Below, in pieces: positions 6,340 through 59,683 of a stretch of 64,000 nucleotides of DNA. Made by a program: the position numbers and the translations under genes. Positions within the stretch are counted from its first letter, which is position 1. The number at the start of each line of letters is the position of its first letter. Below the pieces are notes generated by a model. The model was not told the DNA's origin, did no database searches, and saw nothing but the letters and a program-made list of their open reading frames with translations. This stretch comes from Enterobacter oligotrophicus (GTDB lineage Bacteria > Pseudomonadota > Gammaproteobacteria > Enterobacterales > Enterobacteriaceae), in assembly GCF_009176645.1 (NCBI RefSeq), contig NZ_AP019007.1:2976001-3040000 (forward strand). Direction: 5' to 3'.

Positions 6340-7018
6340 GCTCAAACAGCAGGTCTTTGAGGCCAATATGGATCTGCCGCGCTATGGCCTGGTGACCTTC
6401 ACCTGGGGCAACGTGAGTGCTATCGATCGCGAGCAGGGGCTGATCGTGATTAAGCCAAGTGGTGTGGCCTATGACACTATGAAAGCTGACGATATGGTGG
6501 TGGTGGATCTCGATGGCAACGTCGTCGAAGGGAAGTGGCGTCCTTCTTCGGATACCGCGACTCACCTGGCGCTCTATCGGCGTTATCCTTCACTCGGCGG
6601 TGTTGTTCATACACACTCGACACATGCCACGGCCTGGGCGCAGGCCGGGCTGGCCATTCCGGCGCTCGGGACCACGCATGCGGACTACTTCTTCGGCAAT
6701 ATTCCCTGCACGCGGGCGTTAACGCAGGCTGAAGTTGAAGGCGAGTATGAACTCAATACCGGCAACGTGATTATTGAAACCCTGGGCGAGAGTGAGCCGC
6801 TGCATACACCGGGTATTGTGGTGTATCAACACGGTCCGTTTGCATGGGGAAAAGATGCTCACGATGCTGTGCATAACGCGGTGGTCATGGAGGAGGTGGC
6901 GAAAATGGCGTGGATTGCTCGCGACATTAATCCGCATCTTCAGGATATTGATGATTACCTGATGAACAAGCATTTCATGCGTAAGCATGGGCCAAATGCC
7001 TATTACGGGCAGAAGTGA
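6332..7018 (+). CDS. ulaF: UlaF, L-ribulose-5-phosphate 4-epimerase
   Basis: A 228-residue class II aldolase/adducin-fold epimerase that converts L-ribulose-5-phosphate to D-xylulose-5-phosphate, feeding the pentose phosphate pathway. The zinc-binding motif [12 protein letters not shown] (His93 and His95) and GNVSAIDRE are visible. The start at 6332 (MRKLKQ) matches AraD/UlaF paralogues and is preceded by GGAGG inside the end of ulaE. It is the last gene of ulaABCDEF. Confidence 0.95.
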
Positions 7019-7075
7019 ATAAGTGCTCTGGAATACCGAAACAGTTGTAACCGGTGGTATTTCAGGGCCATTTTC

Positions 7076-7100
7076 AAAAAAAAGCCCCCGGACAGGGGGC
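7076..7100 (-). terminator. Rho-independent terminator of yjfY
   Basis: On the minus strand a GCCCCC stem with a five-base loop and GGGGGC (7084-7100) is followed by eight T residues. It lies 56 bases beyond the yjfY stop and would also face ula transcription from the other side. Confidence 0.85.
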
Positions 7101-7155
7101 AAGTCAAACTATGGCTATATTTTTCGTTGGCTTTCCTGGTGCTAGCGTTAAAGCG

Positions 7156-7431
7156 TTATCGGTAAATATCTGCGCTTGCATGCATATTGCCGTTGCTGCC
7201 GGGTTCACGCGTTAACATCACGTGATAATATTTTGCACCCTGAGCCTCGGTCTCTTCATTAAGCGCCTGATCTGCTTCACTTTCAGTGGCGAAATTATGA
7301 TTGATATAGATTACGCCTAAGCTCTGCACATCATCCATATTTCTGGCCTGTCGGCCATCTATCTTAATGGCTGCCATTGCGTTTGCGCTGAGCAAAAGTG
7401 CAGCCATAATGGCAATTGCGATTTTTTTCAT
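7156..7431 (-). CDS. yjfY: YjfY, small periplasmic DUF1471 (YhcN/BhsA-type) protein
   Basis: A 91-residue exported protein. A signal peptide (residues 1-21: KK followed by a hydrophobic stretch and AMA) precedes a mature domain of about 70 residues whose end, EPGSNGNMHASADIYR, is characteristic of the YhcN/BhsA/McbA group of small stress-induced proteins. The start at 7431 was chosen because the signal peptide begins there; the upstream open frame has no plausible N-terminus. Its location between ulaF and rpsF is the same as in E. coli. Its function is unknown. Confidence 0.9.
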   Translation of the reverse strand: MKKIAIAIMAALLLSANAMAAIKIDGRQARNMDDVQSLGVIYINHNFATESEADQALNEETEAQGAKYYHVMLTREPGSNGNMHASADIYR

Positions 7432-7646
7432 GATATGCGCTCCACGACTGCGTGCTGTCTGACGGTTGAATGCTCTCCTTTTGGTTTCGGATGGGCTTTG
7501 ATTAAAGTGTAATCGGTTCTCTGGCGGGGATTGCTGACCATTTCTGATGCTGTTGTTCAAAAAAACAACGCTTCTCGATGTGATTAATTTTAAATCACCC
7601 ACTTAGACCAGCTTTGCGCTTTGTGCGAATTATTTGTGCGATCAGC

Positions 7647-52559: not shown

Positions 52560-52843
52560 GGATGCCTCCTTGCTTTAAGCGGGCGAGGTAGCAAACTCCA
52601 CGGTCCGACGTGTCGTTTCGAGCCCCCGCCCTGATTTTTTATCAGGCGGGGCTTTCCACTTTCCGTCCCATGCATGAGACGGTCAGTCTCAAGCACCCGT
52701 CGCCACTCTAGCGAATCCCCATAAGAAAACCTTATCCACATCACATTTCTACGAGCCTGCTCGAAATCTTTTTCGCTGTGATTGACCCTTATTTGCCGCT
52801 GAATAGCGTGATATTCATCACGTAAATATGGCCATTTATCCAT
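52556..52843 (-). CDS. Open frame upstream of and coupled to the hok-type gene (mok-like)
   Basis: A frame of 95 codons (ATG at 52843; a GTG lies two codons earlier) that ends TGA overlapping the toxin ATG. In hok systems a mok frame is translated first and couples hok translation, and the last 39 codons here, from an internal ATG in the leader (rest of frame GTESGKPRLIKNQGGGSKR...), fit that role. The first part (MDKWPYLRDEYHAIQRQ, then SEKDFEQARRNVMWIRF) looks like ordinary protein but I recognise no family, and the Shine-Dalgarno is weak. It could be chance open frame upstream of the toxin promoter. Confidence 0.35.
   Translation of the reverse strand: MDKWPYLRDEYHAIQRQIRVNHSEKDFEQARRNVMWIRFSYGDSLEWRRVLETDRLMHGTESGKPRLIKNQGGGSKRHVGPWSLLPRPLKARRHP
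52595..52657 (+). ncRNA. Sok-like antisense RNA candidate
   Basis: On the strand opposite the toxin leader, TGAT and CCCCGCC (52624-52635) pair with ATCAGGCGGGG (52641-52651), with one bulged C and a T loop, followed by CTTTCC. This lies 60-100 bases upstream of the toxin start, the position of sok relative to hok. The 5' end is a guess; I could not assign a good sigma-70 promoter (TTGCTT at 52570-52575 lacks a well-spaced -10). Confidence 0.4.
52676..52690 (-). other. 5' hairpin of the hok-type mRNA
   Basis: On the minus strand GAGAC, TGACC, GTCTC preceded by GTGCTT and followed by ATG. Plasmid R1 hok mRNA has an equivalent GAGGC...GCCTC stem in the same CTTGAG context, recalled from memory. 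Confidence 0.5.
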
Positions 52844-52857
52844 ATTCACCGTATTTA

Positions 52858-52873
52858 TGTGGCACAGATCACT
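52858..52873. promoter_or_regulatory. CRP-like site upstream of the ten-gene cluster
   Basis: TGTGG-N6-TCACT, eight of ten positions of the TGTGA-N6-TCACA core, about 120 bases before the first gene. Catabolite control would suit a carbohydrate operon. Confidence 0.5.
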
Positions 52874-52992: not shown

Positions 52993-53313
52993 ATGAACGA
53001 CGTTGGGGAACAGGCGGTGCAAACAGAACAGCTCGCGAACACCATGCTGCAGCAGGTCTATGCCCTGCTGGCCCGGCACAACATCATCCCCAATGCAGTA
53101 CAGGAACAGATGCTGACCTCCCACGTCCGCGCGATGGCGCACCGGTCCGTGACCGGCGAGCCGCTGCCGGAGGTTGAAGCGGAGCTGTTCGATGAAATTT
53201 CACCTGATTCAATGCGGCTTGCCCGTGAAGTGGTCGCGCAGTTTGGCAACCTTCCTGATGAAGAAGCCTGGCTGCTCTCCGTTCACTTCGAAGTCGCGAA
53301 AGACAACCTTTAA
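52993..53313 (+). CDS. Single-PRD protein (EF_0829-type)
   Basis: 106 residues forming one PTS regulation domain without any DNA-binding part. The two histidines typical of a PRD are His44 (LTSHVRAMAHR) and His98 (LLSVHFEVAKD). PRDs are phosphorylated by HPr or EIIB proteins, so this may sense or relay PTS state. The ATG at 52993 has GGAG five bases upstream and is preferred to GTG 52975. It is the first gene of the cluster, followed after ten bases by the SFCGS gene. Homologues head the same gene group in Enterococcus and Salmonella, by recollection. Confidence 0.82.
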   Translation: MNDVGEQAVQTEQLANTMLQQVYALLARHNIIPNAVQEQMLTSHVRAMAHRSVTGEPLPEVEAELFDEISPDSMRLAREVVAQFGNLPDEEAWLLSVHFEVAKDNL

Positions 53314-53323
53314 GGAGCAACAC

Positions 53324-53686
53324 ATGGAACAGATTACAGTCGTGATTGGCGATCGCCTGGGTAAAGGTCAGAAAGTGGCTGCGGGTGTGGAAAAAGCAGG
53401 TGGACGCGCGGTTGTCGTGCCGGGTATGGCAGCAGATATGAAACTGGGCGACGTAATGAAAGCGGAAAACGCCACTTTCGGTATCTCTTTCTGCGGCAGC
53501 GGCGGCGCGGGGGCTATTACCGCGCAAACCAAATATGGCTACAAAGCGAAATACGGTATGCGTTCAGTGGATGAAGGCGTCACCGCCATCAACGAAGGCT
53601 GCAACGTGCTGGGCTTTGGCTTTATGGATAAAGAAGAGCTGGGCGAGCGTCTGGTACAGGCGTGGCAGAAGAAGCACGGCGCGTAA
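53324..53686 (+). CDS. Glycine-rich SFCGS family protein
   Basis: A 120-residue cytoplasmic protein named after the motif ISFCGSGGAGAITAQT (Cys57) that I can see directly. The N-terminus MEQITVVIGDRLGKGQKVAAG resembles a nucleotide- or phosphate-binding start. The function is unknown. The isolated cysteine in a small-residue loop recalls the phosphorylated cysteine loop of PTS EIIB proteins, but no homology is claimed. TAAGGAG lies seven bases before the ATG at 53324. Confidence 0.85.
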   Translation: MEQITVVIGDRLGKGQKVAAGVEKAGGRAVVVPGMAADMKLGDVMKAENATFGISFCGSGGAGAITAQTKYGYKAKYGMRSVDEGVTAINEGCNVLGFGFMDKEELGERLVQAWQKKHGA

Positions 53687-53688
53687 GT

Positions 53689-53988
53689 ATGAAAGAACAG
53701 TTCACAACCACGGTGAGAGTGAAGGGGAAGGGCGACGCCAAAGCGCGCGCCTTTGCTGATGCACTCAACCACGTTCAGGCCGCGGTGATGAAAGCCTCAC
53801 CGCATATCTTACTGCGTATTGAGCCACAGGATGTGCAGGTTGTTCAGGCGCAAGAAGCGGTGCGTAAAGAAGCATTTCTGTTCTTCTTTCTGCGCCGGGA
53901 AAGACGCACCTACAGCGTGGAGCTGGATGTGACCGTCAACGTGACTGCTATCAATCTCGACCAGGTGGATTTCGTCACGCAACGCTGA
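53689..53988 (+). CDS. DUF4312-type small protein
   Basis: 99 residues with alternating beta-strand-like segments (FTTTVRVKGKGDAKARAFADALNHVQ; YSVELDVTVNVTAINLDQVDF). Recognised by context and size as the DUF4312 (EF_0831-like) member of this gene group; function unknown. ATG 53689 begins two bases after the SFCGS stop, so the two are probably translated together. No good separate ribosome binding site is visible, which supports coupling. Confidence 0.78.
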   Translation: MKEQFTTTVRVKGKGDAKARAFADALNHVQAAVMKASPHILLRIEPQDVQVVQAQEAVRKEAFLFFFLRRERRTYSVELDVTVNVTAINLDQVDFVTQR

Positions 53989-54010
53989 TTATTCATAAAA
54001 GGGCAGACTG

Positions 54011-54787
54011 ATGTTCTTAATTATTTTAATAAAATCGCTCATCATTGGCGGCCTGGTTGGCGTCGGTGTAGGAGCCGGGGCTGCACGCATGTTTCATGCG
54101 CCTACCACTCAGGGTATGGGCGCGTTTCGCACATTGGGGGAACTGAACTCCTGTGAAGGGGACCCGGCATCCCACTTCTCCTTTGGGTTAGGTTTCTTCT
54201 TTAACGCCTGGGCCTCTTCCGTGGCCGCGGGTGCCTTCACACAGGACGTTGACCACCGCATCATCCCGAACTGGGGGGCGGCGGCGCTGATGATCAAAAA
54301 CCGTAACGTCGGTGAAACACTGCATGACCCGCGCAAAATGGCAATTGCCTGCGGCATCATCGGCATGATTGTTGTGACCTTCCTTAACCTGACCGCCTCT
54401 TCCGTTCCGGCCGCACTCCAGGTGACCGCCGTGAAGGTACTGGTGCCTGCGGCTAACCTGCTGGTGAACACCGTGATGCCAGTGATCTTCTGGCTGGCGG
54501 CCATCGACGCAGGTAAAAAATCCGGCTTCTGGGCCACCATCTTTGGTGGTGCTGCACAGCTGATCATGGGTAACGCCGTACCGGGGCTGGTACTGGGTAT
54601 TCTGATTGGTAAAGGTGTTGAAGAGAGCGGCTGGAACCACGTCACCAAAGTGATGATGGCGGCCATCGTCCTGCTGTTCGTGCTGAGCGGTTTCTTCCGC
54701 GGCTTCGACATGAAGATGATCGAATCCTTCCATCTGACCGTGCCGAACTGGCTCGACATGATCCACAACTCGCTCAGCGGTAAATAA
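54011..54787 (+). CDS. DUF4311-type polytopic membrane protein
   Basis: 258 residues with about seven hydrophobic segments, starting MFLIILIKSLIIGGLVGVGVG. A conserved-looking polar stretch LNSCEGDPASHFSFGLGFFFNAW lies after the first helix. Identified as the DUF4311 (EF_0832-like) protein by gene context and composition. It is adjacent to a second membrane protein, and together they look like the two membrane components of a transporter. Function is not established. Confidence 0.8.
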   Translation: MFLIILIKSLIIGGLVGVGVGAGAARMFHAPTTQGMGAFRTLGELNSCEGDPASHFSFGLGFFFNAWASSVAAGAFTQDVDHRIIPNWGAAALMIKNRNVGETLHDPRKMAIACGIIGMIVVTFLNLTASSVPAALQVTAVKVLVPAANLLVNTVMPVIFWLAAIDAGKKSGFWATIFGGAAQLIMGNAVPGLVLGILIGKGVEESGWNHVTKVMMAAIVLLFVLSGFFRGFDMKMIESFHLTVPNWLDMIHNSLSGK

Positions 54788-54800
54788 CAGGAGCCTCGAC

Positions 54801-55442
54801 ATGGAACAAAATAAAGGTTTTTGGTATGCCGACTGGTCGTTCCCGATCTTCGTTGGCCTGCTCTCCTCCGGTGTGTTCGCCGGGACGCACATGTACTACC
54901 TGTACGGCATCGGCGCGTTTAACGAAGTGGCCTTCGTGGCGATGCTGAAAGCAGGCATCGATACCGGCGTGTACGGCGCGGTGGCGGCGTTCGGCGCGAG
55001 CTTCCTGTTCGCCCGTATTATTGAAGGATCGCTGGTCGGTATTCTTGATATCGGCGGCGCGATCCAGACCGGTGTAGGCCTCGGCGTTCCGGCGCTGCTG
55101 CTGGGTGCGGGCATCATGTTCCCGGTGACCAACTTTATTGCCTCGCTGATTACCGGCCTGGTGATTGGTCTGGCGATTGGTTACGTCATTATCCTGGCGC
55201 GTAAGTTCACCATCAATCAGAGCAACTCCACCTACGGGGCAGACGTGATGATGGGCGCGGGTAACGCCTCTGGCCGCTTCCTCGGGCCGTTGATTATCCT
55301 CAGCGCCATGACCGCCTCCATTCCCATCGGCGTCGGTTCCCTGGTTGGCGCACTGCTGTTCTATATCTGGCAGAAGCCTATTACCGGTGGTGCCATCCTC
55401 GGCGCAATGATTTTAGGCTGGCTGTTCCCGGTCGCCCTTTAA
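54801..55442 (+). CDS. DUF4310-type polytopic membrane protein
   Basis: 213 residues with about six hydrophobic segments. The loop NQSNSTYGADVMMGAGNASGRFLG near residues 135-158 is polar and glycine-rich, like a substrate loop in PTS EIIC proteins, though no family link is shown. Identified as the DUF4310 (EF_0833-like) protein by context. It starts 13 bases after the DUF4311 gene with AGGAG upstream. Confidence 0.8.
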   Translation: MEQNKGFWYADWSFPIFVGLLSSGVFAGTHMYYLYGIGAFNEVAFVAMLKAGIDTGVYGAVAAFGASFLFARIIEGSLVGILDIGGAIQTGVGLGVPALLLGAGIMFPVTNFIASLITGLVIGLAIGYVIILARKFTINQSNSTYGADVMMGAGNASGRFLGPLIILSAMTASIPIGVGSLVGALLFYIWQKPITGGAILGAMILGWLFPVAL

Positions 55443-55484: not shown

Positions 55485-56618
55485 ATGTTTGATTTACTCC
55501 TGCGCCGTGCGCGCCTTACCGACGATACCCTGACCGATATCGCCATTCAGGACGGGAAAATCGCGGCGCTTGGCGAGATTGACGCGCCCGCTCATAAAAC
55601 GGTTGAGCTGAACGGCGAAGTGTTCGTCAGCGCAGGCTGGATTGACTCTCACGTTCACTGCTACCCGAATTCGCCGATTTACCATGACGAGCCGGACAGC
55701 GTAGGCATTGCTACGGGCGTGACCACCGTTGTGGACGCAGGCAGTACCGGCGCGGACGACGTGGACGATTTTTATGACATCACCCGCAAAGCCTCCACCG
55801 AAGTCTTTGCCCTGCTGAACATCTCCCGCGTGGGGCTGATTGCCCAGAACGAACTGGCCAATATGGCCAACATTGACGCTGATGCGGTGAAGCAGGCGGT
55901 TAAACGCCACCCTGATTTTATTGTCGGCCTGAAAGCGCGCATGAGCAGCAGCGTGGTCGGTGAAAACGGCATTACGCCGCTGGAACGCGCGAAAGCGATC
56001 CAGAAAGAGAACGGCGATCTGCCGTTGATGGTGCACATCGGCAATAACCCGCCGAACCTCGACGAAATTGCCGGGCTGCTGAGTTCTGGTGACATCATCA
56101 CCCACTGCTACAACGGCAAACCGAACCGCATTCTGACGCCTTCCGGCGAACTGCGTGCGTCCATCACGTCTGCGCTGAAACGCGGCGTGCGTCTGGACGT
56201 CGGCCACGGCACGGCGAGCTTTAGCTTTGAGGTGGCGAAACGCGCCATCGCGATGGGCATTCTGCCGCACACCATTAGCTCGGATATCTACTGCCGCAAC
56301 CGTATCAACGGCCCGGTGGGCAGCCTGGCAAGCGTGATGTCGAAATTCCTCGCTATTGGCATGTCACTGCCGCAGGTCATTGCGTGCGTGACCGCGAACG
56401 CCGCCGACGGCCTGCGCCTGACGCGCAAAGGGCGTATTGAGCCAGGGCTCGACGCCGACCTGACGCTGTTCACCATTAAACGCCAGCCGACGGTGCTGAC
56501 GGATGCTGAAAACGACAGCCTGCAGGCTGAACACATTCTGGTGCCGCTTGCCGCGATCCGCGCGGGCAAGGGCTACATGACCGAACAAGGGAGCACGGAA
56601 CATGCCTTCGATTTATGA
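55485..56618 (+). CDS. Amidohydrolase/deacetylase (EF_0837-type)
   Basis: A 377-residue metal-dependent amidohydrolase. Metal ligands visible: DSHVHCYP (His56, His58), a lysine likely to be carbamylated (GLKARMS, Lys150), VHIGN (His184), THCYNGK (His207) and SSDIYC (Asp267). It should remove an acyl group or open a cyclic amide, most simply N-deacetylating an amino sugar acid before the ammonia-lyase encoded next. AGGAGAT lies before the ATG, and it overlaps the next gene by 17 bases. Confidence 0.84.
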   Translation: MFDLLLRRARLTDDTLTDIAIQDGKIAALGEIDAPAHKTVELNGEVFVSAGWIDSHVHCYPNSPIYHDEPDSVGIATGVTTVVDAGSTGADDVDDFYDITRKASTEVFALLNISRVGLIAQNELANMANIDADAVKQAVKRHPDFIVGLKARMSSSVVGENGITPLERAKAIQKENGDLPLMVHIGNNPPNLDEIAGLLSSGDIITHCYNGKPNRILTPSGELRASITSALKRGVRLDVGHGTASFSFEVAKRAIAMGILPHTISSDIYCRNRINGPVGSLASVMSKFLAIGMSLPQVIACVTANAADGLRLTRKGRIEPGLDADLTLFTIKRQPTVLTDAENDSLQAEHILVPLAAIRAGKGYMTEQGSTEHAFDL

Positions 56619-57720
56619 GAAGTACCACTTAAAGCAAGTTATCAATACCTCTGGCCGCATGACGGCGCTGGGCGTCTCCACGCCGCGCCCGGAAGTGGTG
56701 CAGGCGGCGATGGACGGGATGAACCACTATTTTGAGATGAAGGATCTGGTCAACAAAACCGGCGAATACATCGCGAAACTGCTGGATGTGGAAGGGGCGA
56801 CGGTGGTTTCCTGTGCGTCGGCAGGCATTGCCCAGTCCGTGGCGGCGGTGCTGGTAAAAGACAGCGACTGGCTGCTGGAAAACCTGCATGTCACCCCGAT
56901 TGAGAACAACGAAATCGTTCTGCCGAAAGGCCACAACGTCAACTTTGGCGCGCCGGTCGGCACGATGGTGGCGCTGGGCGGCGGTAAGCTGGTAGAAGCA
57001 GGCTACGCTAATGAGTGCTCTGCCGATCAGCTGGCGGCGGCGATCACCCCACGCACCGCGGCGATCCTCTACATCAAATCTCACCACTGCGTGCAGAAAA
57101 GCATGCTCAGCGTGGAGCAAGCGGCAGTGGTGGCGCGTAAACACGATCTGCCGCTGATCGTCGATGCTGCAGCAGAAGAAGATCTGCATGTTTATTACCG
57201 CTCCGGTGCTGACCTGGTGATCTACAGCGGCGCGAAGGCGATCGAAGGGCCAACCAGCGGGCTGGTGATCGGTAAAGCTCAATATGTTGAGTGGGTAAAA
57301 CGCCAGACGGCGGGCATTGGCCGTGCCATGAAGGTGGGCAAAGAGGGCATCCTCGGCCTGACCTGCGCCATCGAACACTACCTCACGGCGACCAAAGAGA
57401 GCGGTGCCGAGATGGTCGCCAAAATGACGCCGTTTATCGACGCGCTGAATACCCTGAACGGCGTCACGGCGCGCGTGGTCTGGGACAGCGCCGGTCGTGA
57501 CATCGCCCGCACCGAGATCAAGTTCGACGAAGCCACCACGGGTGTCGGCACTGGCGAACTGGTGAATGCGCTGAAGCAGGGTGAATACGCCATTTACTTC
57601 CGTGGCTACAAGGCCAACGAAGGGATTATCGAAGCGGATGTGCGCAGCGTGAACGCTGATCAGCTGAACATCGTGTACCGCCGCATTAGCGAAGTGTTAG
57701 GACAGGAGAAAAACGCATGA
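56602..57720 (+). CDS. DgaE-like PLP-dependent ammonia-lyase
   Basis: A 372-residue SelA-like fold-type I PLP enzyme. The Schiff-base lysine is Lys212 in LVIYSGAKAIEGPTSG and the cofactor aspartate Asp188 in PLIVDAAAEED. Salmonella DgaE converts D-glucosaminate-6-phosphate to 2-keto-3-deoxygluconate-6-phosphate and ammonia; this protein is the obvious counterpart, though the amino acid stereochemistry of its substrate is unknown. It overlaps the amidohydrolase gene and, by ATGA, the aldolase gene, so the three are made together. Confidence 0.84.
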   Translation: MPSIYEKYHLKQVINTSGRMTALGVSTPRPEVVQAAMDGMNHYFEMKDLVNKTGEYIAKLLDVEGATVVSCASAGIAQSVAAVLVKDSDWLLENLHVTPIENNEIVLPKGHNVNFGAPVGTMVALGGGKLVEAGYANECSADQLAAAITPRTAAILYIKSHHCVQKSMLSVEQAAVVARKHDLPLIVDAAAEEDLHVYYRSGADLVIYSGAKAIEGPTSGLVIGKAQYVEWVKRQTAGIGRAMKVGKEGILGLTCAIEHYLTATKESGAEMVAKMTPFIDALNTLNGVTARVVWDSAGRDIARTEIKFDEATTGVGTGELVNALKQGEYAIYFRGYKANEGIIEADVRSVNADQLNIVYRRISEVLGQEKNA

Positions 57721-58457
57721 AACTGACCCCCAATTTTTACCGTGACCGCGTCTGCCTGAACGTACTGGCTGGCTCTAAGGCCAACGCCAGCGCCATTTAT
57801 GAGGCGGCGGAAGGTCATGTGCTGGTGGGCGTGCTCTCCAAAAACTACCCGGACGTAGCGAGCGCGGTCGCGGATATGCGTGAGTACGCGGCACTGATTG
57901 ATAATGCGCTCTCTGTGGGTCTGGGCGCGGGCGATCCAAACCAGTCGGCGATGGTGAGTGAAATTTCCCGCCAGGTGCAGCCGCAGCACGTCAACCAGGT
58001 CTTCACCGGCGTGGCCACCAGCCGCGCGCTGCTGGGGCAGAATGATTCCGTCGTCAACGGTCTGGTCTCTCCGACTGGCACCGTCGGGATGGTGAAAATC
58101 TCCACAGGCCCGCTGAGCAGCGCAGCTATGGACGGCATTGTGCCGGTTGAAACCGCGATTGCCCTGCTGAAAGATTTCGGCGGCAGCTCGATCAAATACT
58201 TCCCGATGGGTGGCCTGAAGTGCCGTGATGAGTACAAAGCAGTGGCGGAAGCCTGCGCCCGTCACGATTTCTGGCTGGAGCCGACCGGCGGTATCGATCT
58301 GGAAAACTTCGAAGAGATCCTGCAGATTGCGCTGGATGCAGGCGTGAGCAAAATCATTCCACATATTTACAGCTCGATCATCGACAAAGCCAGCGGCGAC
58401 ACACGCCCGGAAGATGTGCGCACGCTGCTTGAAATGACGAAGAAGCTGGTTAAATAG
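57717..58457 (+). CDS. DgaF-like KDGP aldolase
   Basis: A 246-residue class I aldolase of the EF_0839/DgaF type. The Schiff-base lysine is probably Lys160 (SSIKYFPMGGLK), as in KDPG aldolases. It would split 2-keto-3-deoxygluconate-6-phosphate to pyruvate and glyceraldehyde-3-phosphate. It overlaps the ammonia-lyase gene by ATGA and is followed by a palindromic repeat. Confidence 0.85.
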   Translation: MKLTPNFYRDRVCLNVLAGSKANASAIYEAAEGHVLVGVLSKNYPDVASAVADMREYAALIDNALSVGLGAGDPNQSAMVSEISRQVQPQHVNQVFTGVATSRALLGQNDSVVNGLVSPTGTVGMVKISTGPLSSAAMDGIVPVETAIALLKDFGGSSIKYFPMGGLKCRDEYKAVAEACARHDFWLEPTGGIDLENFEEILQIALDAGVSKIIPHIYSSIIDKASGDTRPEDVRTLLEMTKKLVK

Positions 58458-58546: not shown

Positions 58547-59683
58547 ATGCACACCCGAAACCTGCTTGTCGCTTCACTCTCTTTACTGGCTACCGCCGCT
58601 GTCGCTCAAACCCAGTATGCCTGGGTCGGCACCTATAATCCGAACGGTGAAGGGCTGTACCGCTTCACCGTCGATCCACAAACCGGTGCGCTCGGTAATA
58701 AGACGCTGGTGAGCAAGTTGCCGAACGCCGCGCAACTGGCCGTCTCGCACGACGGCAAAACGCTTTATCTGGCAAGTGAAGTAGAGCAGGGCGTGGTGCA
58801 GGCGCTGCGGGTGGGCGAGAACGGCGAACTGAGTGAGCTGAATCAGGTTTCCTCCGGCGGTGCGGGGCCGGTTTATCTCTCTCTGACACCGAACGGCCAG
58901 CACCTGCTGGTGGCGAACTACGTCAGCGGATCGATTGCCGTTCTGCCGATCAAAACAGACGGTAGTCTGGGTGACGCGACGGACACACATCAGGATCAAG
59001 GTGAACCGGGTGCGGCGAAACCGGAAGCCGCTGTTGAGGGTAGCTTCGCCATCAGCGATCACAACGGCCCCCATGCGCACATGATCGCCGCCGATCCGAG
59101 CGGGAAGTCTGTTTTTTCTACCGATCTGGGGCTGGATCGTATCTATCAGTACCGCTTTGACGATCAAAGCGGAAAGCTGACGCCGAACGATCCGCCATTT
59201 ATCAATGCTTCCTCAAAAGGGGCGGGGCCGCGCCATTTTGTCTTTACGCCGAAAGGTGATGCCCTGTGGCTGATTAACGAAGAGGCGTCTACGCTCACCC
59301 ATTATGTGATGGACAGTCAGGGGCGGCTGAAAGAGGGGAAAACGATCTCAGCCCTGCCGGAAGGTTACAAAGGCACCAGTTTTGCCGCTGGATTGGTACT
59401 GAGTGTGGATGGAAAACAGCTGTACGTAGCTAACCGTTTGCATAACAGCATCGGGCACTTTACCGTAACAGCGGATGGCACGCTGACGCATCAGGATGAT
59501 GTCTGGACGCGTGGCGACTACCCGCGCACCCTGACGCTCGATAAACAGGGGCGCTGGCTGTACGTCATGAATCAGCGTAGCGACAACATTACCCGTTTCC
59601 GCGTTGGGCGGGACGGCAAACTGAGTTTTGAACCGGACTATACGCCGGTCGGCAGTCCATCCCAGATGGTTATTTCACCCTAA
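58547..59683 (+). CDS. Exported lactonase-type seven-bladed beta-propeller
   Basis: 378 residues of the YbhE/6-phosphogluconolactonase-like family (repeated blades with QTGAL, KGAGPRHFVFTPKGD, YPRTLTLDKQGRWLYVMNQ). Unlike cytoplasmic Pgl it begins with a signal peptide (MHTRNLLVASLSLLATAAVAQ), so it acts in the periplasm, perhaps hydrolysing a sugar-acid lactone before uptake. GAAGGAG is seven bases before the ATG at 58547. It is separated from the aldolase by a repeat but lies between it and the regulator. Confidence 0.83.
   Translation: MHTRNLLVASLSLLATAAVAQTQYAWVGTYNPNGEGLYRFTVDPQTGALGNKTLVSKLPNAAQLAVSHDGKTLYLASEVEQGVVQALRVGENGELSELNQVSSGGAGPVYLSLTPNGQHLLVANYVSGSIAVLPIKTDGSLGDATDTHQDQGEPGAAKPEAAVEGSFAISDHNGPHAHMIAADPSGKSVFSTDLGLDRIYQYRFDDQSGKLTPNDPPFINASSKGAGPRHFVFTPKGDALWLINEEASTLTHYVMDSQGRLKEGKTISALPEGYKGTSFAAGLVLSVDGKQLYVANRLHNSIGHFTVTADGTLTHQDDVWTRGDYPRTLTLDKQGRWLYVMNQRSDNITRFRVGRDGKLSFEPDYTPVGSPSQMVISP

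Follow-up and report, generated by a model that had tools for sequence, protein, structure and literature searches.

A conserved five-gene set of Enterobacter oligotrophicus as a candidate PTS-type permease for N-acylated amino-sugar acids

The window analysed here, a stretch of 64,000 nucleotides of Enterobacter oligotrophicus (contig NZ_AP019007.1, positions 2,976,001 to 3,040,000), contains a single tight operon in which the genes for a lone PRD protein, a protein of the SFCGS family, DUF4312, DUF4311 and DUF4310 are accompanied by those for a deacetylase, an ammonia lyase of the DgaE family, a KDGP aldolase, a lactonase and a PRD regulator (table 1). Re-translation of the open reading frames reproduced the place and length that a preliminary description of this DNA had given for the five leading genes, including the two histidines of the lone PRD protein, and their tight packing is reflected in intergenic gaps of 2 to 22 bases. 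Profile matches also bear out the enzymes announced after the five genes, namely amidohydrolase, DgaE and KDGP aldolase, and the PTS-controlled regulator of PRD/EIIA type at the end of the operon. The lactonase lying between aldolase and regulator is an addition to that earlier list. Upstream there are two CRP-like sites, scored against the CRP consensus; the best such site matches at least 8 of 10 positions in all of the 80 Enterobacterales loci examined, which are related and not independent, compared with 6 of 80 single-base shuffles.

Table 1. Features of the operon and of its upstream region (positions counted from the first letter of the window)
Feature	Position	Strand	Basis
CRP-like palindrome CGTGATATTCATCACG, upstream of operon	52807..52822		8/10 consensus positions
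Second CRP-like site TGTGGCACAGATCACT	52858..52873		8/10 consensus positions
Lone PRD protein, 106 aa, H44 and H98	52993..53313	+	TIGR03582, 139.6 bits
SFCGS protein, 120 aa, Cys57 in SFCGSGG	53324..53686	+	PF14272/TIGR03577
DUF4312 protein, 99 aa, soluble, proposed accessory	53689..53988	+	PF14189, 117.6 bits
DUF4311 protein, 258 aa, about 6 hydrophobic segments	54011..54787	+	PF14188, 405.3 bits; hydropathy
DUF4310 protein, 213 aa, about 6 hydrophobic segments	54801..55442	+	PF14187, 359.2 bits; hydropathy
Amidohydrolase/deacetylase, EF_0837 family	55485..56618	+	TIGR03583, 579.9 bits (cut-off 432.15)
PLP ammonia lyase, DgaE family	56602..57720	+	TIGR01437, 607.2 bits
KDGP aldolase, DgaF family	57717..58457	+	NF047796, 395.8 bits (cut-off 300)
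Lactonase, 7-bladed propeller	58547..59683	+	PF10282, 319.6 bits
PRD regulator, 636 aa	59703..61613	+	PF00874, two stretches; PF00359, 64.1 bits

The five leading proteins, encoded by adjacent genes, each exceed the curated cut-off of their own family (TIGR03582, PF14272/TIGR03577, PF14189/TIGR03578, PF14188/TIGR03580 and PF14187/TIGR03579). The lone PRD protein is assigned through TIGR03582 only, since its Pfam PRD score of 19.1 bits lies below the cut-off of 23. The genes presumably correspond to STM4441-4448, and PADLOC returned zero matches for the three proteins tested. All five models are hypothetical equivalogs, in agreement with the earlier remark that these families lack an assigned function, and among the papers listed from open-access PMC no title, abstract opening or passage seen gave them a functional assignment.

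All of the 80 Enterobacterales loci examined contain an eight-gene core in identical order, with a coverage above 60% required of every gene; two Bartonella plasmids carry this core too, and the gene set is not a chance assembly. The five genes are adjacent in Bartonella and in Enterococcus faecalis too, the latter locus bearing out their co-occurrence in EF_0829-EF_0839 as given in the preliminary description. SFCGS, DUF4310, DUF4311 and DUF4312 are found in Enterobacterales, Vibrionaceae, Aeromonas, Chromobacterium, Bartonella and Enterococcus; a megablast match to the set was not found in E. coli genomes, and 279 pattern-matching stretches of viral contigs encoded no relative.

The enzymes encoded downstream delimit the metabolic context of the set. 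The amidohydrolase matches PDB entry 8wzy over residues 1-376 with 722.9 bits, and the aldolase scores above the cut-off of the KDPG-aldolase equivalog. The ammonia lyase remains under the 600-bit cut-off of the dga equivalog (379.3 bits); in alignments its residues R303, R334 and R348 correspond to R301, R332 and R346 of Salmonella DGL, the phosphate site of which was placed by manual docking (PMC9529869). All three phosphate-side arginines are likewise unchanged in the E. faecalis, Bartonella and Klebsiella enzymes. The lactonase, found in 44 of the 80 loci, begins with MHTRNLLVASLSLLATAAVAQ, which by eye resembles a signal peptide; the protein has one hydrophobic segment (residues 6-24) and is predicted to be exported.

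The predicted fold of the SFCGS protein is an RpiB/LacAB-like Rossmann fold. In the structural comparison with PTS EIIB components proposed in the preliminary description, its nearest neighbours are isomerases of the RpiB/LacAB type and not EIIB. The lactose EIIB 3nbm ranks 45 in Foldseek against SFCGS (E 6.8e-3, TMq 0.39), and no other EIIB appears among the best 50 rows of either Foldseek or VIA-align. Cys57 is retained in 118 of the 120 relatives listed and is invariant across six sequences that include YhfU. A profile alignment with one RpiB sequence places it opposite Cys66 of E. coli RpiB, while RpiB His99 falls on position 90 of SFCGS, which is N, A, Q, E, G or K and never His in 75 sequences. 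C66 and H99 are the catalytic residues of E. coli RpiB; of this pair, SFCGS retains the cysteine and has the histidine replaced in 75 of 75 cases. Moreover, RpiB extends to residue 149 and carries Arg133 and Arg137, which bind phosphate, whereas SFCGS stops at residue 120. We propose that SFCGS is a phosphocysteine carrier in the role of an EIIB.

For the membrane pair we propose that DUF4311 forms the first and DUF4310 the second half of a permease pore, and in-frame DUF4310-DUF4311 fusions do occur in the protein database (P0011, P0012, P0041 and P0048). A joint model of both proteins had a mean pLDDT of 46.9, too low for reading a fold. With hmmscan against Pfam at E up to 10, neither the proteins of the window nor those of E. 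faecalis matched a known EIIC family, and DUF4311 had no significant match among PDB sequences. Its weak Pfam matches, to DUF2232 (E 0.0074) and LrgA (E 0.042), are below cut-off, as is that of the E. faecalis protein to DUF2232 (E 0.034). DUF4311 matches in two further genomes, L009 and L010, were weak and below cut-off and were discarded; the one in L009 falls in a protein that by its sequence is DjlA-like with a DnaJ domain, and is due to chance. An alignment of five DUF4312 sequences shows neither a conserved His nor a conserved Cys. The earlier equation of the two soluble proteins with EIIA and EIIB is not supported, given also the RpiB/LacAB affinity of SFCGS. Histidines are available elsewhere: when six sequences are aligned, E. 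coli YhfY and the Cetobacterium PRD among them, H44 of the lone PRD protein occupies one of the 4 invariant columns, and the EIIA domain of Mtl/Fru type in the regulator has an LPH motif with H554.

In the dga operon of Salmonella, the slot taken here by the DUF set holds a transporter, and gene context supports the claim that the one replaces the other. None of the ten operon proteins is a mannose-family EIIA, EIIB, EIIC or EIID. Related operons fill the same slot variously, in a comparison drawn from plasmid records with incomplete gene tables (11 of 14 matching records) that represent few independent lineages: the KDGP-aldolase operon of L. paracasei has a mannose-type PTS and no kinase, that of Priestia a gluconate:H+ symporter and a PfkB-type kinase, and Alicyclobacillus, the aldolase of which is only 32% identical, an ABC importer and a xylulokinase-type kinase. 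In Klebsiella and Bartonella the slot is filled by the DUF set alone, without a kinase. Three kinase queries gave no PfkB-type match in the 80 Enterobacterales loci, for which the search covered this type only, nor in the L. paracasei, Bartonella (L093) and L094 loci. In Bartonella the last gene of the cluster encodes an HPr-EI fusion that has both active-site histidine motifs; no further PTS permease is annotated in the incomplete gene table of that plasmid. The fusion could serve the PRD regulators only. No other candidate importer lies inside the Bartonella cluster; elsewhere on the plasmid two MFS and two ABC genes are annotated, within a block that also contains TonB-dependent receptors. 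For phosphorylating uptake the evidence from E. faecalis is mixed, as its DUF set is accompanied by a lactose/cellobiose-type EIIC, a 99-residue protein, MupG and a PfkB kinase. C. difficile and Niallia, in which no DUF set was seen, have the EIIC-MupG-kinase module as well, and its composition shows that the presence of a kinase does not preclude an EIIC.

How could these elements work together? The explanation we favour, with a confidence somewhat above even, is that the five genes encode a PEP-dependent permease of PTS type that belongs to a family not yet described and takes up an N-acylated amino-sugar acid, N-acetyl-D-glucosaminate being the most plausible. The phosphoryl group would pass from EI and HPr to a histidine protein, for which the lone PRD and the regulator's EIIA domain are the two candidates, and from there to Cys57 of SFCGS, acting as EIIB; DUF4311 and DUF4310 together would form the membrane channel, in the role of EIIC, with DUF4312 as an accessory subunit. 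The cargo would arrive inside as its 6-phosphate, to be deacetylated by the amidohydrolase of EF_0837 type, deaminated to KDGP by DgaE and cleaved by the aldolase, with pyruvate and glyceraldehyde 3-phosphate as products; in loci that have the lactonase, the exported enzyme may open a sugar lactone outside the inner membrane. The conserved gene set, the lack of a PfkB-type kinase nearby, the phosphate-site residues, the HPr-EI fusion of Bartonella and the predicted fold of SFCGS come from the analysis itself; every step of transport and of phosphoryl transfer, and the identity of the cargo, is what we infer from them. A narrower version, which we regard as quite doubtful, makes the lone PRD the histidine phosphocarrier instead of a regulator, in a relay from HPr~P to His44, to Cys57 and to the sugar acid in a membrane protein unrelated to known EIICs, with the same trio operating in the yhf operon. 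The new PTS-like transporter class suggested in the preliminary description is partly supported, by the slot, the lack of a nearby PfkB-type kinase and the Bartonella fusion, but not in its assignment of parts to EIIA and EIIB.

The same genes might instead encode a transporter whose cargo enters unphosphorylated, the role of the PTS being limited to regulation through the PRD proteins, with DgaE working on the free acid and a kinase elsewhere phosphorylating KDG or glucosaminate. This we find unlikely, while giving it appreciable weight: in known systems the PTS exerts regulation on PRD proteins, as described for the LevR-like DgaR (PMC4987338), the PfkB kinase of E. faecalis adjoins the set, and the searches above found no EIIC or EIIB homology. 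However, DgaE has kept its phosphate arginines, PfkB-type matches are missing from the 80 loci and from Bartonella while the symporter-type relative has one, and a conserved Cys57 protein would be left unexplained.

If SFCGS, possibly with DUF4312, were an isomerase of RpiB/LacAB type, the membrane pair alone would be an ordinary secondary carrier. The predicted fold and the alignment of Cys57 with Cys66 agree with this idea, which is nonetheless improbable in view of the invariably replaced His99, of a proposed pathway that has no aldose-ketose step and of the fact that two types of operon, which differ in their enzymes, both combine SFCGS-like proteins with membrane proteins. Even less probable is that the membrane pair constitutes a sensor or a membrane-bound step while the real importer lies elsewhere in the genome; the uninformative joint model and the lack of a family that assigns a function would allow it, whereas the Bartonella cluster, with its MFS and ABC genes set apart beside receptors, speaks against it.

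The classification of PTS permeases recognises a small number of EIIC folds. If our favoured reading of a phosphorylating permease is correct, an RpiB-fold phosphocysteine carrier working with unrelated membrane proteins would add a class to them, four families (SFCGS, DUF4310, DUF4311 and DUF4312) would acquire a function with a named cargo class, the N-acetylated amino-sugar acids, and a role would be suggested for the uncharacterised yhfT, yhfU and yhfY of E. coli. The plan of these three genes is like that of the operon described here: a lone PRD protein, a Cys protein whose glycine loop resembles that of SFCGS, and a membrane protein. In Cetobacterium the three are adjacent in that order; in E. 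coli yhfX, yhfW and php separate the PRD gene from that of the Cys protein. The yhf operon differs in having other enzymes, no annotated DUF4312 and a single membrane protein, YhfT, with about 12 hydrophobic segments against 6 plus 6 in DUF4311 and DUF4310. Homology between the two sets is weakly supported. The conserved Cys is common to SFCGS and YhfU/DUF2620, which align over 105 columns with a score of 19.7, reached by 2/150 and 1/150 shuffles (hhalign probability 3.7%); DUF4310 and YhfT align over 67 columns with 28.4, reached by 0/150 and 1/150 (8.6%). Against the C-terminal half of YhfT, the local score of DUF4310 (27.7) was reached by none of 80 shuffles and the global one by 60 of 60. 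DUF4311 does not match YhfT, its score being reached by 59 of 80 shuffles (hhalign probability 0.15%), and was rejected also against the N-terminal half, where shuffles reached its local score in 60 of 80 cases and its global score in 53 of 60. A YhfT match at one further locus, L105, was weak and lay in an unrelated-looking protein.

In the glucitol PTS, too, the membrane component is spread over two proteins (IIC2 and IIBC1), and SrlE carries a cysteine, in a DCGG motif, that becomes phosphorylated. In 3 of 3 alphaproteobacterial glucitol PTS operons examined, ptsP follows the EIIA gene, as in the Bartonella cluster. As a parent of the set this system was discarded, SFCGS, DUF4311, DUF4310 and DUF4312 giving only background, like reversed profiles, against SrlE-B, SrlA, SrlE-C and SrlB. 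The Salmonella dga operon has DgaE, DgaF and a regulator of PRD type in common with the operon of E. oligotrophicus, which has SFCGS, DUF4312, DUF4311 and DUF4310 in place of the PTS genes and a deacetylase in addition; the mannose-family PTS DgaABCD is described as importing its cargo as D-glucosaminate-6-phosphate (PMC9529869; PMC4987338). The families found here are identical to those of the sets EF_0829-EF_0839 and AHA_3910-3917 (TIGR03577 to TIGR03583), and it is to this group that the operon of E. oligotrophicus belongs.

In the single-contig genome of Enterobacter oligotrophicus (4.48 Mb), the five genes that the preliminary description had claimed, with their sizes and spacing, are all found in the window, where they belong to a plus-strand run between cytochrome b562 and nrdG, both named after a like-ordered Klebsiella locus. 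The five TIGR families they match (table below) are hypothetical equivalogs according to NCBI. After DUF4310 follow, in order, an EF_0837-type amidohydrolase, a DgaE-family lyase, a KDGP aldolase (the only match to its family in the genome), a lactonase and, last, a regulator that carries an EIIA-type domain besides two PRD stretches.

Coordinates and family matches of the features discussed
Feature	Record	Position	Remark
CRP-like palindromes, two	window	52807-52873	upstream of lone PRD
Lone PRD	window		TIGR03582
SFCGS	window		PF14272/TIGR03577
DUF4312	window		PF14189/TIGR03578
DUF4311	window	54011-54784	PF14188/TIGR03580
DUF4310	window		PF14187/TIGR03579
Lactonase	window	58547-59683	N-terminus signal-peptide-like
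Regulator, end	window	61613	
nrdG, start	window	61646	
RelB/RelE-type toxin-antitoxin pair	Klebsiella L094	16669-17185	regulator on one side, nrdG on the other
KDGP aldolase region	E. faecalis L092	16498-17252	no single open frame; unlisted as gene
Internal deletion, DUF4310 to aldolase	Aeromonas L126 (A. caviae record)	6905-7444	match ends after 36 residues; aldolase match from residue 98 nearby
EIIC-MupG-amidohydrolase-DgaE-KDGP aldolase-PfkB kinase module, recurrent in Bacillota	C. difficile L120	4142-10738	
Same module	Niallia L123	2119-9753	
Same module	E. faecalis L092	11548-18263	
yhf operon	L098	4436-11845	lone PRD, Cys protein, membrane protein, as in window
yhf operon	L107	5294-13657	as L098

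Salmonella DGL (DgaE) acts on PTS-delivered D-glucosaminate-6-phosphate, whose phosphate, placed by manual docking, lies near Arg301, Arg332 and Arg346 (PMC9529869). By alignment their counterparts in the window are R303, R334 and R348, invariant also in E. faecalis, Bartonella and Klebsiella; the window aldolase scores over the KDPG aldolase equivalog cut-off, whereas its DgaE falls under the cut-off of the dga enzyme equivalog. Because the phosphate-side arginines are kept and the aldolase passes that cut-off, the substrate should already be phosphorylated on arrival at DgaE, and a family profile search gave no kinase match among the operon's ten proteins. The best reading, towards which we lean with moderate confidence, is that the DUF set (SFCGS, DUF4312, DUF4311 and DUF4310 with the lone PRD) is a phosphorylating, PTS-dependent permease; to this extent the transporter proposed in the preliminary description is partly supported, with a changed assignment of its parts.

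What else occupies the transporter slot of KDGP-aldolase operons bears on the source of the phosphate. An aldolase protein search of the plasmid collection gave 14 records, 11 of which were examined, with K. pneumoniae, L. paracasei and Listeria each represented by the first of two records. According to the plasmid gene tables, which are incomplete, the DUF set occurs without a kinase in Klebsiella and both Bartonella plasmids, as does a mannose-type PTS in L. paracasei; Priestia has a sugar kinase with a gluconate:H+ symporter, C. difficile and Niallia have MupG, a PfkB kinase and a lactose/cellobiose-type EIIC, and E. faecalis combines the DUF set with the EIIC-MupG-kinase module. In two more distant records (31-32% identity), Listeria has an ascorbate-type PTS with no kinase annotated, and Alicyclobacillus a xylulokinase with an ABC transporter. 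Kinase queries of PfkB type only (the E. faecalis, C. difficile and Priestia enzymes) found no match in Bartonella L093, Klebsiella or L. paracasei, nor in 80 Enterobacterales loci, among which the EIIC queries had one match each. In survey and queries together, then, a kinase is found beside a symporter, an ABC transporter or MupG but not beside a DUF set standing alone; the comparison covers few independent lineages, and E. faecalis is mixed. The Bacillota module may itself serve a MurNAc-containing disaccharide, the second half of which would be an amino-sugar acid.

Next after the cluster on each Bartonella plasmid comes a protein of 671 residues (the two copies are 99.7% identical), which in L093 comprises HPr and EI domains; its HPr motif (around His19) and its EI motif (around His295) are both intact. 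Elsewhere on the HY406 plasmid (55.7 kb), no further gene carries a PTS annotation. This protein fits an HPr~P-dependent permease; it might conceivably serve the regulator only. A similar arrangement is seen in glucitol PTS operons of alphaproteobacterial plasmids, where ptsP comes after the EIIA gene in all three examined (L113, L114, L116) and the N-terminal parts of its products align with the Bartonella protein from the HPr domain on (29-33% identity); five other plasmid glucitol operons had no ptsP in the displayed stretch, and one had an HPr gene. For the histidine carrier, DUF4312, previously likened to EIIA, is unlikely, because its five compared sequences share neither a His nor a Cys and none of the genes annotated in yhf operons corresponds to it. 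Within the constant trio of PRD, Cys protein and membrane protein, the likelier candidate is the lone PRD, the alternative being the regulator's EIIA domain (LPH); the antiterminator that neighbours the E. faecalis set showed no such domain.

The joint model of DUF4311 and DUF4310 (mean pLDDT 46.9, pTM 0.39) is too poor for reading the fold, perhaps due to an alignment of close relatives only. DUF4311 residues 29-88 are strikingly conserved and rich in polar residues, and DUF4310 has a conserved ST(Y/F)GADVMMGAGN stretch; both would fit substrate loops. Weak Pfam matches of DUF4311, at E 0.0074 for DUF2232 and E 0.042 for LrgA, stay under cut-off. Because a deacetylase precedes DgaE, the gene content points to an N-acetylated acid as cargo, and because of the lactonase N-terminus, to an acid that forms from a lactone on the outer side of the inner membrane; the simplest candidate would be N-acetyl-D-glucosaminate.

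DUF4311 relatives lie on 474 stretches of the genome collection. The best 80 are, by record titles, all Enterobacterales, mainly Enterobacteriaceae; every one of them keeps the full eight-gene core, PRD through aldolase, in the same order, the regulator is present in 78 (the other two are contig ends), the lactonase in only 44, gene order being otherwise alike, and the best upstream CRP-like site scores at least 8/10 in 80/80. No megablast match to the set was found in E. coli genomes. The distribution is patchy, since in even samples DUF4311 occurs in 7 of 299 Pseudomonadota genomes (the window's own counted, all of the window's family) and DUF4310 in 1 of 369 of the class, the window's own. 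Protein searches (best 120 of 1440, 1471 and 1126) extend the set to Vibrionaceae, Aeromonas, Yersiniaceae, Chromobacterium and others; it is also in E. faecalis and Bartonella. Four database proteins (P0011, P0012, P0041, P0048) are single-chain DUF4311-DUF4310 fusions, in all of which one or both partners are incomplete at the start or junction, and the A. caviae record is a DUF set with an internal deletion into the aldolase, by which the end of the permease and two enzymes are lost.

As names, these families and the fact that they co-occur were already known. Salmonella STM4441-2 are presumably genes of this operon type. They are listed with crp, and with a plus for a permissive gut community, in one study (PMC11000858); two others mention a possible association of EF0839 with the metabolism of amino sugars and with fitness in nutrient medium (PMC7701990) and, among urine-induced inserts, one carrying the putative ef_0839 or ef_2975 promoter (PMC2912369). 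In the literature found, no paper assigns a function to these families, and neither the function proposed here, the RpiB fold predicted for SFCGS, the Bartonella HPr-EI case nor the yhf parallel appears.

This parallel concerns the E. coli yhf operon, in which the DUF2620 protein YhfU adjoins the membrane protein YhfT and which also has a lone PRD, YhfY. E. faecalis SFCGS has a weak DUF2620 match (E 0.034, residues 5-103, under cut-off). Profile comparison favours a link between SFCGS and YhfU (105 columns), with a score reached by 2/150 and 1/150 shuffles but an hhalign probability of only 3.7%, and one between the N-terminal part of DUF4310 and YhfT (67 columns), with 0/150 and 1/150 but only 8.6%; DUF4311 against YhfT gave nothing, and global alignments of either protein with YhfT no match. 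By hydropathy, the membrane pair has 6+6 hydrophobic segments against 12 in YhfT. The YhfU Cys is kept in 9/9 sequences and is one of nine invariant columns in six sequences spanning the SFCGS and YhfU groups; PRD His44 is likewise invariant in six spanning window-type and yhf-type groups, although YhfY, unlike the window PRD, does not keep the second histidine. From such sequence comparisons, a relation between the two modules is plausible but unproven. In E. coli three enzyme genes separate the PRD from YhfU, unlike in the window, whereas the Cetobacterium yhf operon has PRD, DUF2620 and YhfT in the window's order.
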